NCBI RefSeq assembly: GCF_020097835.1
Contig: NZ_CP083666.1
Location: 124,001-188,000 of the forward strand
Length of the DNA: 64,000 bases
Direction of reading: 5' to 3'
Source: Haloprofundus halobius
GTDB taxonomy: Archaea > Halobacteriota > Halobacteria > Halobacteriales > Haloferacaceae
The position numbers were made by a program, and so were the translations under genes. Shown one piece after another: positions 12,552-15,713 of the stretch (positions within the stretch are counted from its first letter, which is position 1; each line of letters begins with the position of its first letter). The notes beneath the pieces are model-generated. The model ran no database searches. It worked only from the letters and a program-made list of their open reading frames with translations, and had not been told where the DNA came from.

Positions 12552-13808
12552 CTACGGTCGGTCACCCGTCGATTCGGTCGGGTACGGATCGAATTCTCCG
12601 CGGGCGGGCGCGGGAATATACCCCTCTAAATCGATATCGGCGAACTCGACACGTTCTCCGCGTTCGGCAGCGAGGTACGAGGCCATACAGAGTTCGACGA
12701 CCTCCAGTCCGTCGTGGAGATCCTCGCGTGCGTTCTCGCCCGCACGGAACGCGGAAACGACGTGGCGGTTCTGGTCTAAATATCCGTACGTCGTCACCTC
12801 GTCGGGGATGACGGCCATCTCCCCTTGAGTCGCCTGCTGTTTCTCGACCACGTAGCCCGCGTCGTCCTCCGCATCGGACGAGACGAAGATACCGACGCCG
12901 GATTCGAGCGTGTTGACGTTCCCCGAGTACTCCGGGCCGAGAAGTTCGATGGTTATTCGGAGTCCGGAACCGACGAAACACCACGAGTTCGTGGACTCCG
13001 CGACGACGACTTCCCCGTCGTCGGTTTCGTAGAACACCGTCGCGTGGGCGTAGTCCTCGGTCGGCTCCGACTGGAAATCGACGCCGAAATCCGCCGCGAG
13101 TCGGTTCGCGTACTCCTCACGCGTCCATTTCAGCGTCGAGAGGTCACAGGTGACCGCGAGCGGCGTCAAATCGTCACCCATCGTCGATTCGAGCAGGTGT
13201 TTATTGACCTTGTGGGAGTGGCACATCATGTCGCTCAGAACGCCCCCACCTTGTTTCTCCCCTTGCCAAAACCACGCCGAGTGCGGTCCCGCATGCTCCT
13301 CAGCCGAGCGCGCGAGGTAGGGCCGACCCGTAGCCTCAGCGCTGTCCCACAGCAGCGCTTTGACCGTCTCCACGCCGGGCATGTAGACCTGATTCTCGAG
13401 ATACGCGTGGGCGACGTCGATCGACTCGACTAACTCGACGACTCGCTTGGCCTCCGTGAGATTGCGTGCGAGGGGTTTTTCGATGGCAATCCCATCGAGG
13501 TGGGCACCGTCTTCGACTGTACTGACGATCTCTTCGACCGTCTCGAGGCGGGTGAAGTTCGGACTGGTAACCCAGATCGCGTCCACGTCCGGATCTCGGG
13601 TGAGATCGCCGACCGACTCGTGGACTGTCGCGTCACCACACTCGTACGCCTCGAGTTTCTCTGCAACGGCCTCGGCCTTGCTTCGGGTGGGATTCATCAC
13701 GCCGGCCGCGTGGGCGTGGCGAATCCCGCGCAGCGTCTCGGAGTGGAACGTGTCCGTGATGAATCCGGCACCGACAAACCCGATTCCGAGTGAATCGTTC
13801 GCTGACAT
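12552..13808 (-). CDS. Gfo/Idh/MocA-family oxidoreductase
   Basis: 418 residues from the ATG at 13808 (MSANDSLGIGFVGAGFITD); the 18 codons upstream read as untranslated leader. The Rossmann GFVGAGF motif for NAD(P) is at the N-terminus, with the family EKPLARN motif (catalytic Lys) near residue 120 and a C-terminal alpha/beta substrate domain including HSAWFWQGEKQGGGVLSD. Members oxidise or reduce sugars, inositols and derivatives. The gene lies upstream of the BMP-type importer on the same strand, which fits a sugar or polyol catabolic link; that link is inference. Confidence 0.85.
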   Translation of the reverse strand: MSANDSLGIGFVGAGFITDTFHSETLRGIRHAHAAGVMNPTRSKAEAVAEKLEAYECGDATVHESVGDLTRDPDVDAIWVTSPNFTRLETVEEIVSTVEDGAHLDGIAIEKPLARNLTEAKRVVELVESIDVAHAYLENQVYMPGVETVKALLWDSAEATGRPYLARSAEEHAGPHSAWFWQGEKQGGGVLSDMMCHSHKVNKHLLESTMGDDLTPLAVTCDLSTLKWTREEYANRLAADFGVDFQSEPTEDYAHATVFYETDDGEVVVAESTNSWCFVGSGLRITIELLGPEYSGNVNTLESGVGIFVSSDAEDDAGYVVEKQQATQGEMAVIPDEVTTYGYLDQNRHVVSAFRAGENAREDLHDGLEVVELCMASYLAAERGERVEFADIDLEGYIPAPARGEFDPYPTESTGDRP

Positions 13809-14036
13809 GTGCTCGGTGAGCAATCGCCATCGACAATATAAATAGCTTGACACGCCGCTCATCCTGTCTCCTTGCGCGTATTCGCCCCGTATTCACCACG
13901 GTCGATACGAACTGTTCGGCCACTAGCAGAGGTGGTGCTGGACGTGGAGCGAAATGGGACGACGGTCCATCTTAATTCAAGCAGGGAATCCCGCCCTTTA
14001 GGGCGGGAGGGAATGCGACACGGTACTGACCACCCG

Positions 14037-14174
14037 CTACTCGGCGGTCGGGCCGGAATCCAACTCCCGTTGCGCGTGGAGTAGCATCCCCCGCCACGTT
14101 AGGCCGTGGCGCTTCTTCGTCTCTTTCAGACTCTCGTACTGTTCCTCGTCTACTTCGATGTTGATGTTCTTCAC
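14037..14174 (-). CDS. 45-aa protein in the tnpA position of the TnpB element
   Basis: GTG start at 14174, stop TAG at 14037-14039. Product MKNINIEVDEEQYESLKETK, then KRHGLTWRGMLLHA, ending DSGPTAE. The strand plus helix-helix outline resembles a short ribbon-helix-helix DNA-binding protein. It diverges from tnpB with only 54 bp between starts, exactly where IS605 elements have tnpA. Similar mini-ORFs accompany other haloarchaeal IS1341-type elements to my knowledge. A role in repressing tnpB or assisting mobilisation is inference. Confidence 0.65.
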   Translation of the reverse strand: MKNINIEVDEEQYESLKETKKRHGLTWRGMLLHAQRELDSGPTAE

Positions 14175-14228
14175 GTCTCATGGTTTGTGACCGACGGTGG
14201 TAAGTGTGACTAACACTATTGTAACATT

Positions 14229-15464
14229 GTGTCCGAGACGGTGACGAAGACGCTACAGGCCACGCTCGCAACTCCCACCACGGGCAAAGAGCAACGCCTA
14301 CAGCGACTCTTGGACACCTACCGCAACGCACTCCACGACGCCTTCGACAACAGGGCAGATACAATGTCTGCCGTCAACGACATTGTAACGCCCTACGACC
14401 TGCCGTACCAAGCCAAAGACGCGCTCAAATCCTACGTCCCGAAACTCCGCCGGACGTATCACGCCGAGGAGTTAGACGACGAGCACCCGCTTCGACTTGT
14501 CAATCGGGCCGCGAAGTTCGACTACTCGGAGGAGCGCGAACACGGCTTCGTGTGGCAAGCCCCGCAACCCGGTCACGGGACGAACTTTTGGATTCCGCTC
14601 CGTATCAACCCCGAACAGGAATTCCAGTGGTTCGACCTGCTCTCCGAGGACGCGAAGGCAGGTGAGTTGCGGCTACAGCGACATCGCACGTCGTGGGAGT
14701 TGCACGTCACCGTCGAATACTCGGTCGAAGAACCGACCAACTCGGACGACGAGACGTACATCGGTTTCGACGTAGGTGAGAACGCGTTGATAACGGGCTG
14801 TGCCCTCAAACGCGACGTACCACGGAAGCCGATGCTCGTCAGCGGCAGTCAATCGAGGCATCTCCGCAAAGAGATGTTCACCACACTTCGGCGGCTACAA
14901 TCGAGAGACGCCGCCGAGTGGCGTGTGGACGAACGATTCGACCACTACCAAAACGCTCTGACGGATATTGTCGAGAAAGCGTCTCGCCAAGCCGTCGAAT
15001 ACGCTCGTTCCTTCGAGAATCCCGTTATTGTCCTCGAAGACCTGTCGTACATCCGCGAGCGGTTGGACTACGGCAAGTTCATGAACCGCCGTCTTCATGC
15101 GTGGGCGTTCGCCCGGCTACAGGGTCGAATCGAAGACAAAGCGACCGAGGCAGGGATTCGAGTCGAGTACGTCAACGCAGCGTATACCTCGCAGACGTGC
15201 CACGCTTGCGGTCGGCTCGGTCGTCGGAGTCAGCAAGCGGAGTTTGTGTGTCCACACGACGACTGCCACGTATCAGAGTTCCAAGCAGACATTAACGCGG
15301 CGGCGAACATCGCCAGTCGCGCTAACCCGTGGGGAGAGAGCGTCCGTTGGGAACCCGGACGCGATGACTCGCCTCGGGATGGGAGCGCCTGTGACAGCGC
15401 CACAGTCCACCGAGAGACGAGTCCGAAAACCGGACAGATGACGCTCTCGGTGTTTTCGGACTGA
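14229..15464 (+). CDS. tnpB: TnpB RNA-guided nuclease (IS1341-type)
   Basis: 411 residues, GTG start. The split RuvC nuclease site is complete: D181 (YIGFDVGEN), E270 (VIVLEDLSY) and D354 (EFQADINAAAN). A zinc finger lies between the last two: C324, C327, C341 and C346 (TCHACG and VCPHDDC). The C-terminal tail after NPWGESVRW (from about 366) is the usual haloarchaeal extension, whose DNA probably also specifies part of the guide RNA. TnpB proteins are omega-RNA-guided DNA nucleases that keep their element in place after excision. Nothing looks broken, so activity is plausible. Confidence 0.92.
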   Translation: MSETVTKTLQATLATPTTGKEQRLQRLLDTYRNALHDAFDNRADTMSAVNDIVTPYDLPYQAKDALKSYVPKLRRTYHAEELDDEHPLRLVNRAAKFDYSEEREHGFVWQAPQPGHGTNFWIPLRINPEQEFQWFDLLSEDAKAGELRLQRHRTSWELHVTVEYSVEEPTNSDDETYIGFDVGENALITGCALKRDVPRKPMLVSGSQSRHLRKEMFTTLRRLQSRDAAEWRVDERFDHYQNALTDIVEKASRQAVEYARSFENPVIVLEDLSYIRERLDYGKFMNRRLHAWAFARLQGRIEDKATEAGIRVEYVNAAYTSQTCHACGRLGRRSQQAEFVCPHDDCHVSEFQADINAAANIASRANPWGESVRWEPGRDDSPRDGSACDSATVHRETSPKTGQMTLSVFSD

Positions 15465-15528
15465 AACCTTCCAAGCCGGATTCCCACCGTGTGGGAAGCC
15501 CCGCTGTTTACGGCGGGGAGGATGTCAC
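15350..15528 (+). ncRNA. Candidate omega RNA / sense-overlapping transcript of tnpB
   Basis: Family knowledge: TnpB guide RNAs derive from the tnpB 3' end and right terminus, and Halobacterium IS1341-type elements produce sense-overlapping transcripts there. Here two strong hairpins follow the stop codon (15482-15498 and 15500-15519); the guide would start just past the right end, about 15529. The 5' boundary given is a guess. Confidence 0.4.
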
Positions 15529-15713
15529 TGCTCGTCGTTCTCGCTCGGGTCGTCGTACTGGCTTTCGGCGTGTCGCACTCGTGGGCGGAGTAGGCGCAAA
15601 AATCGGCGGTTGGCTGACCGGATCCGATGAACAACGCCACCATCGGCGTAGTGTCCGCGGGGCGACTGCGTAGCGCATCGTCGTACCGAACGAAGTCTGG
15701 TCGTTCTCGAACC
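15529..15713. other. Intergenic flank of the TnpB element
   Basis: On the plus strand directly after the right end one frame reads LLVVLARVVVLAFGVSHSWAE then stop, which looks like the hydrophobic end of a membrane protein cut by the element, but no matching beginning is recognisable left of 13979. Otherwise nothing is seen. Confidence 0.3.

Follow-up and report, generated by a model that had tools for sequence, protein, structure and literature searches.

The stretch of DNA analyzed here (64 kb of the Haloprofundus halobius genome, hereafter the window) contains a roughly 1.56-kb mobile element that encodes the RNA-guided endonuclease TnpB and, divergently, a second protein of only 45 residues (Table 1). 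Alignments to two other copies, L043 and L044, begin and end at the same element boundaries. In addition, genome G037 has two copies that are 99.55% identical over 1561 bp and have different flanks. The element moves as a unit and has subterminal hairpins at its ends, as in the IS1341-type members of the IS200/IS605 group. The window TnpB matches the guided_TnpB family (NF040570) with 130 bits (cut-off 100) and also Cas12f1-like_TNB, and no Y1 TnpA match was found upstream of its gene. The element is thus a mobile IS605-type element with tnpB and without tnpA. For the putative guide RNA, RF00062 (HgcC) matches over the tnpB 3' end and the right-end hairpin with 32.5 bits (E = 3.7e-5), under the gathering score of 50, and five related loci gave no Rfam family at gathering score. 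The HgcC RNA family may itself be TnpB guide RNA.

Table 1. Features of the element in the window, with positions counted from the first nucleotide of the window.
Feature	Positions	Strand	Basis
Whole mobile element (left end to right end)	13967-15528		Alignment with copies L043 and L044
Left-end subterminal hairpin CCCGCCC-TTTA-GGGCGGG	13990-14007	+	From sequence; equivalents in RHH-, co-oriented-ORF- and Y1-type elements
45-aa ribbon-helix-helix (RHH) gene (type A), stop codon included	14037-14174	-	Conservation, selection, model, fold matches
Putative 54-bp divergent promoter/operator region	14175-14228		Conservation, repeats, covariation
Central GTAA (TTAA or TTTA in relatives), proposed shared TATA-like box in mid-gap	14200-14203		30-locus alignment; promoter role inferred
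Operator-like repeat unit 1, TAACA	14211-14215	+	Repeat analysis
Operator-like repeat unit 2, TAACA, 11 bp from unit 1	14222-14226	+	Repeat analysis
tnpB, 411 aa, RNA-guided endonuclease	14229-15464	+	Family profile matches
Probable omega/reRNA, tnpB 3' end and right end	15419-15540	+	Below-cutoff RF00062 HgcC match
Right-end hairpin, then terminus GGATGTCAC (to 15528)	15499-15518	+	Sequence, copy alignment, end comparison

The small gene starts with GTG and its translation is VKNINIEVDEEQYESLKETKKRHGLTWRGMLLHAQRELDSGPTAE. An in-frame TGA (14180-14178) lies just 5' of this codon, which leaves the GTG as the sole possible start near the predicted ribbon. A sequence-only reading had described a 45-residue ORF divergent from tnpB by 54 bp and had staked its relevance on conservation in related elements and on purifying selection; both were found. 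Among the loci in which tnpB is at least 83% identical to that of the window and the upstream DNA is kept, all 31 have the RHH gene opposite tnpB, and the gap is exactly 54 bp in 30 of them. The one locus that departs from this, L065, has a frameshift in its RHH gene (L066, without upstream DNA, is not counted, and L013, without a tnpB match, was left out of the comparison). Across the 26 loci that were compared, the gap sequences themselves diverge by about 47% on average. In a sample of 391 genomes drawn from the haloarchaeal class, RHH relatives were found in 156 genomes and in 58 of 86 genera (E ≤ 0.01). A separate scan of GTDB genomes yielded 119 relatives, of which 80 were kept; a divergent tnpB match lies within 2.5 kb in 67 of the 76 loci with a readable start, the start being unreadable in the other four. 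Haloferax prahovense and Natrinema altunense are among the species that have the element. By their record titles, these relatives are all haloarchaeal except for one uncultured archaeon, and several of the partner TnpBs are only 27-40% identical to the window TnpB in the matched part. All three RHH relatives in the H. halobius genome face a tnpB. One locus of this genome (L005, G000:C2:73740-74959) has a tnpB broken by a TAA stop and an open RHH frame. At L205, found in the wider set of loci, an RHH remnant lies beside an oxidoreductase gene that is 50% identical to the window neighbor at 12552-13862. The idea that L205 and the window represent the same locus was rejected given the opposite orientation, and the similarity is taken as coincidence or a separate insertion.

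For selection, the pN/pS of the RHH gene is 0.187 (26 sequences, 30 codons, bootstrap 0.09-0.29), compared to 0.183 for tnpB in 19 of the same loci (sets reduced for near-copies: 26 and 26, with 19 for tnpB). When this stretch was read in shifted or antisense frames, pN/pS ranged from 0.31 to 2.65, with the 0.31 coming from an antisense frame. Furthermore, residues K20, G24, T26, W27, and G29 are invariant. The ORF is listed as a hypothetical protein or has no gene given in public plasmid records, it has no Pfam or NCBIfam family, and its one PHROG match (E 0.12) is of unknown function. No match was found in the phage collection; IMG/VR contigs contain three relatives, one of which (L292) entered the ribbon and repeat-base comparison below. 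Although this annotation in plasmid records and the very short length would suit a passenger or chance ORF without function, purifying selection contradicts such an origin, as do the invariant residues and the fixed spacing, and we consider it extremely unlikely. A chance ORF is ruled out by the selection result, and a remnant of TnpA by the lack of Y1 similarity and the different fold. The 45-residue ORF is confirmed as a conserved gene. The proposal that it forms a component of the element is borne out by conservation, selection, and the movement of the whole unit.

The fold of the product was predicted from 47 sequences by AlphaFold2 (pLDDT 91). The model has extended residues 1-9, helices at residues 10-23 and 27-39, and, beyond helix 2, only about six residues, which are variable and of low confidence (pLDDT block 60). 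DSSP assigned no strand in this monomer; the ribbon of RHH proteins forms in the dimer. The best structural matches from VIA are CopG (Z 5.9), Arc (5.8 and 5.6), NikR (5.7), and AmrZ (5.4). Ten of the 11 VIA matches are RHH proteins, counting MazE-mt1 and VapB, which we take to belong to this fold, and the remaining one (2mdv) is a beta-alpha-alpha miniprotein. Over Foldseek and VIA together, this miniprotein is the single match outside the RHH fold. Sequence profiles are weak on their own: Pfam RHH_1 matches two of the 20 members of the RHH group with a best E of 0.12, below the cut-off, the window protein has no Pfam hits, and none of the six PDB sequences matched by the ORF at E 10 or below (best 0.18) is an RHH protein. 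Since the Pfam cut-off is a database criterion and not a structural one, the fold assignment is kept and a named Pfam membership is not. Ribbons of RHH proteins have alternating residues with one face to the DNA. In the predicted strand, N3, N5, and E7 alternate with I4, I6, and V8, as would be expected of a ribbon with one DNA-facing side. The model and the nearly uniform structural matches thus support an RHH-type fold for the ORF product, in agreement with the strand and two helices suggested earlier.

To describe what fills the position of tnpA, the upstream regions of 128 tnpB loci (at least 60% identical to the window tnpB) were typed. The slot contains an RHH gene of the window kind (type A) in 59 loci, another divergent RHH-like ORF (type B) in nine, a small co-oriented ORF that overlaps the tnpB start (type C) in 28, and a Y1 TnpA gene in 29; it is empty in two, one of which (L066) is cut by a contig end. 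L160 has type C and also a co-oriented type A gene 440-580 bp upstream, which is probably part of a second element. In none of the 128 loci does a small ORF, RHH included, occur together with a Y1 TnpA. The claim that the ORF occupies the place of tnpA therefore stands more firmly than it was first made. Below 60% identity, where clades were sampled just through RHH matches and a few copies from the same genome, six H. halobius loci were typed; three have Y1 TnpA and three have nothing in the slot. With 122 rows in the TnpB tree (the more distant L009, L010, and L012, and eight loci without a long uninterrupted tnpB frame, were left out), the four slot states need 10 changes and the distinction between small ORF and Y1 TnpA needs six.

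The other small ORFs have features of their own. The type B ORF (..VTIREEQ..NLSSLVRECIDERMES; L071 and L074-L081) is about 54 or 55 bp from tnpB depending on the start chosen. The type C ORF (VRTEIDMERG..RHPRAY.ELIEKGLE) is preceded by 12-bp direct repeats and was noted in L090, L102-L106, L108-L112, L114, L116-L118, L134, L147, L152, L158, and L164; it gave no Pfam RHH match, and in our reading of its sequence it may be an RHH protein as well. Some RHH relatives have no tnpB match within 2 kb. Those in L171-L174 and L176 have an N-terminal extension (about 90 aa) and face an ORF for a small membrane protein (..AQEFCDDPAGQLLISIETMLINYG..). Those in L186, L187, L203, and L210 are ORFs of 99-111 aa with two copies of the RHH domain per chain, possibly single-chain dimers.

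The fold matches also include RelB and DinJ, and type B resembles the CcdA antitoxin family (E 0.01, below the cut-off). Together with MazE-mt1 and VapB, these similarities would fit an inhibitor that, like an antitoxin, binds TnpB itself and restrains the nuclease. RHH antitoxin modules (RelB, CcdA, DinJ, VapB) share the fold and the arrangement of a small autoregulated gene beside a nuclease gene. However, RHH antitoxins neutralize their toxins through a C-terminal tail, and the few variable residues after helix 2 of the window protein provide hardly any such tail. Moreover, the window ORF is divergent rather than operonic, its partner is TnpB, and the TnpB partners of related RHH proteins are no more than about 25-40% alike. 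An inhibitor of this type is decidedly unlikely.

The gaps between type A genes and tnpB have a periodic structure. Exact 5-mer matches at a lag of 11 bp number 36, compared to 1.9 expected from dinucleotide shuffles (z about 18-20), and the other lags from 6 to 23 have 0 to 4 matches each (27 of 56 type A loci taken at a 75% identity limit; L163 and L033 left out). Of ten control stretches of these loci, seven have no lag-11 match, two have one each, and one has 10. The 11-bp repeats occur in 15 of the 27 non-redundant loci with about eight different units (TAACA, CTACG, CTAAG, GTTAC, TTAGT, GTGCA, CATTT, and GTGGG), which means that the period is constant across differing unit sequences. Other slot types differ in period: 12 bp in five of six non-redundant type C loci, and 9 and 19 bp in type B (four loci). 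The DNA before tnpA, in seven loci, has a single 12-bp repeat and none of 11 bp. At more distant type A loci, the gap is mostly 54-58 bp long. Four of the distant loci (L168, L169, L170, and L175) have inverted rather than direct repeats in the gap, e.g., TCTATG..CATAGA, and operator geometry may therefore differ there. In the window, the TAACA pair is the only such pair in 64 kb (at most one mismatch), and the exact pattern occurs twice in the H. halobius genome, here and on another contig. Regularly spaced sites are thus present in the putative promoter region, as an autorepressor would have them.

In the alignment of 30 loci, most rows have TTAA or TTTA in mid-gap, about 25-29 bp from both start codons. 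For Haloferax volcanii, parts of one study (PMC4983044) report that 72% of protein-coding transcripts are leaderless and propose TTWT as the TATA motif. If both genes were transcribed without leaders from one central box, the constant gap length of 54 bp would follow. A divergent regulator at such a shared box could work either way, and the RHH protein might activate tnpB or favor one of the two divergent promoters. However, the repeats in the window are at a distance of 3 to 18 bp from the tnpB start codon, and protein bound there would be likelier to block the start than to recruit it; we regard an activator or switch as very unlikely.

The ribbon residues of the RHH protein track the gap DNA. 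In 26 close loci (near-copies L072, L049, and L048 and L057 with its interrupted tnpB left out), the Mantel correlation is 0.76; it becomes 0.75 when TnpB is controlled for and 0.73 when the helices of the RHH protein are. The helices themselves correlate with TnpB (r 0.67). Position by position, correlation with the gap reaches 0.75 in ribbon codons 3-8, ranges over 0.18-0.56 in the helices, and is at most 0.21 from tnpB codon 1 on. Mapped onto a TnpB tree of 29 close loci, the ribbon type requires a minimum of 10 changes, little under the 13.5 of shuffled labels. These patterns suggest that the ribbon and the gap act as one exchangeable unit. Particularly, when ribbon residue 3 is H, the fourth base of the repeat is C in 20 of 20 units, and when it is N, this base is A in 30 and G in four of 34 units (identical rows removed). 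Because the ribbon codons adjoin the gap, part of this covariation could reflect exchange of a linked DNA tract rather than recognition. Only two genomes in the set have two close copies (L065, L006, and L160 were left out of it); the pair in G037 shares the ribbon type, whereas that in G358 differs (H/N/F in L051 and Y/K/I in L073).

The location of the gap repeats also bears on whether the RHH protein binds element DNA to aid a Y1 TnpA encoded elsewhere and so replaces the contribution of tnpA. Y1 TnpA-bearing IS605 elements of this TnpB clade have tnpB genes about 66-73% identical and very similar termini, which makes mobilization in trans plausible for the small-ORF elements. In those elements, tnpA is co-oriented and abuts or overlaps tnpB, and neither a small divergent ORF nor 11-bp repeats are found. 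A helper role would further agree with the mutual exclusion of RHH and Y1 TnpA in the 128 loci, with movement of an element that has no TnpA of its own, and with the presence in G037 of two Y1 elements of the clade in addition to the two RHH copies. However, the DNA with which the ribbon covaries is intergenic rather than terminal, the 11-bp repeats occur in the intergenic gap and not in control stretches, and the exact operator pattern is present just twice in the H. halobius genome. The earlier suggestion of a helper for a trans-acting TnpA gained no specific support, and we judge it unlikely.

Taken together, the conserved divergent partner, selection equal to that on tnpB, the predicted RHH fold, the 11-bp repeats, the covariation, and the mobility of the unit favor another explanation. 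The ORF product most likely is an element-encoded RHH transcription factor that represses its own gene and tnpB. The earlier proposal of a tnpB repressor gains indirect support from the operator-like repeats and the ribbon-DNA covariation, from which binding and repression themselves are inferred. Several observations count against an autorepressor. The fold-match scores are weak (Foldseek E ≥ 1.7, VIA Z ≤ 5.9); modest scores may be expectable for 45 residues. Two of 30 close relatives have no recognized start codon (ATA in L057 and GTA in L064). No exact 11-bp 5-mer repeat is present in 12 of the 27 non-redundant type A loci, and in 20 non-redundant distant type A loci lag 11 has a small excess (6 vs 1.2), surpassed at lags 8 and 15. 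Finally, the repeats of the Y3/K5 subtype are closer to the RHH start than to the tnpB start, and the central box of the window is GTAA rather than TTAA.

Under autorepression, RHH dimers would bind side by side on repeats about one helical turn (11 bp) apart, and in the window the bound repeats would overlie the proposed tnpB transcription start. Both genes would produce leaderless transcripts from the one central AT-rich box. Repression would lower tnpB mRNA as well as the guide RNA made from the tnpB 3' end. Guide-like RNAs of haloarchaeal IS1341 elements are processed from larger precursors that overlap tnpB, according to passages of PMC8303175, and repression would therefore be expected to lower nuclease and guide together. 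A new copy in a naive cell would give a burst of TnpB until the repressor accumulates. Since the ends of the element resemble those of TnpA-bearing relatives, a Y1 TnpA acting in trans presumably mobilizes it.

Among known systems, haloarchaeal IS1341-type elements have the same tnpB, subterminal hairpins, 3' guide-RNA-like end, and lack of tnpA. The window element differs in its second gene, an RHH gene for which we found no description in this family. In the CopG/Arc/MetJ repressors, the likeness lies in the predicted strand-helix-helix, the length of 45 residues, and covariation of the ribbon with tandem sites spaced by about one helical turn; the window ORF differs in having no significant RHH_1 match, an RNA-guided nuclease as partner, and an archaeal promoter. 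CopG and Arc follow the same logic of autorepression in a small mobile genome. TldR, a TnpB-derived RNA-guided repressor, is also a regulator from the TnpB lineage; it is itself an inactivated TnpB, whereas the putative repressor of the window is a separate protein.

More speculatively, TnpA-less haloarchaeal TnpB elements may form immunity groups like those of temperate phages. Ribbon and operator would be swapped as a cassette, and a resident element would silence incoming elements of the same specificity and not others. Loss of TnpA and gain of a repressor would then be a single repeated switch involving at least three small proteins (types A, B, and C). As a check of the immunity groups, the two genomes with two close copies gave one pair alike in ribbon type (G037) and one pair unlike (G358). 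We hold this idea only tentatively and consider it rather doubtful.

No description of TnpB with an RHH partner was found in the literature covered, which is weak evidence given that it comprised open-access papers and few preprints. RHH repressors and IS605 elements are each known; new here are the alternation in the slot among 128 loci, the repeat periods that differ between slot types, and the covariation of the ribbon with the gap DNA. Genes for TnpB without TnpA are common in haloarchaea; their abundance and the puzzle that they pose are discussed in passages of a 2011 Haloquadratum paper, in which element diversity suggested stringent control of copy number (PMC3119063). The RHH protein is a concrete and genetically simple candidate for control of the nuclease. 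The system comprises a putative repressor of 45 residues, a 54-bp switch, and natural variants in which N or H in the ribbon is paired with A or C, respectively, in the putative operator. With this system, control of a natural RNA-guided nuclease can be put to a direct test, and its putative ribbon-operator pairs provide a ready set for studying how one of the smallest DNA-binding folds recognizes its sites.
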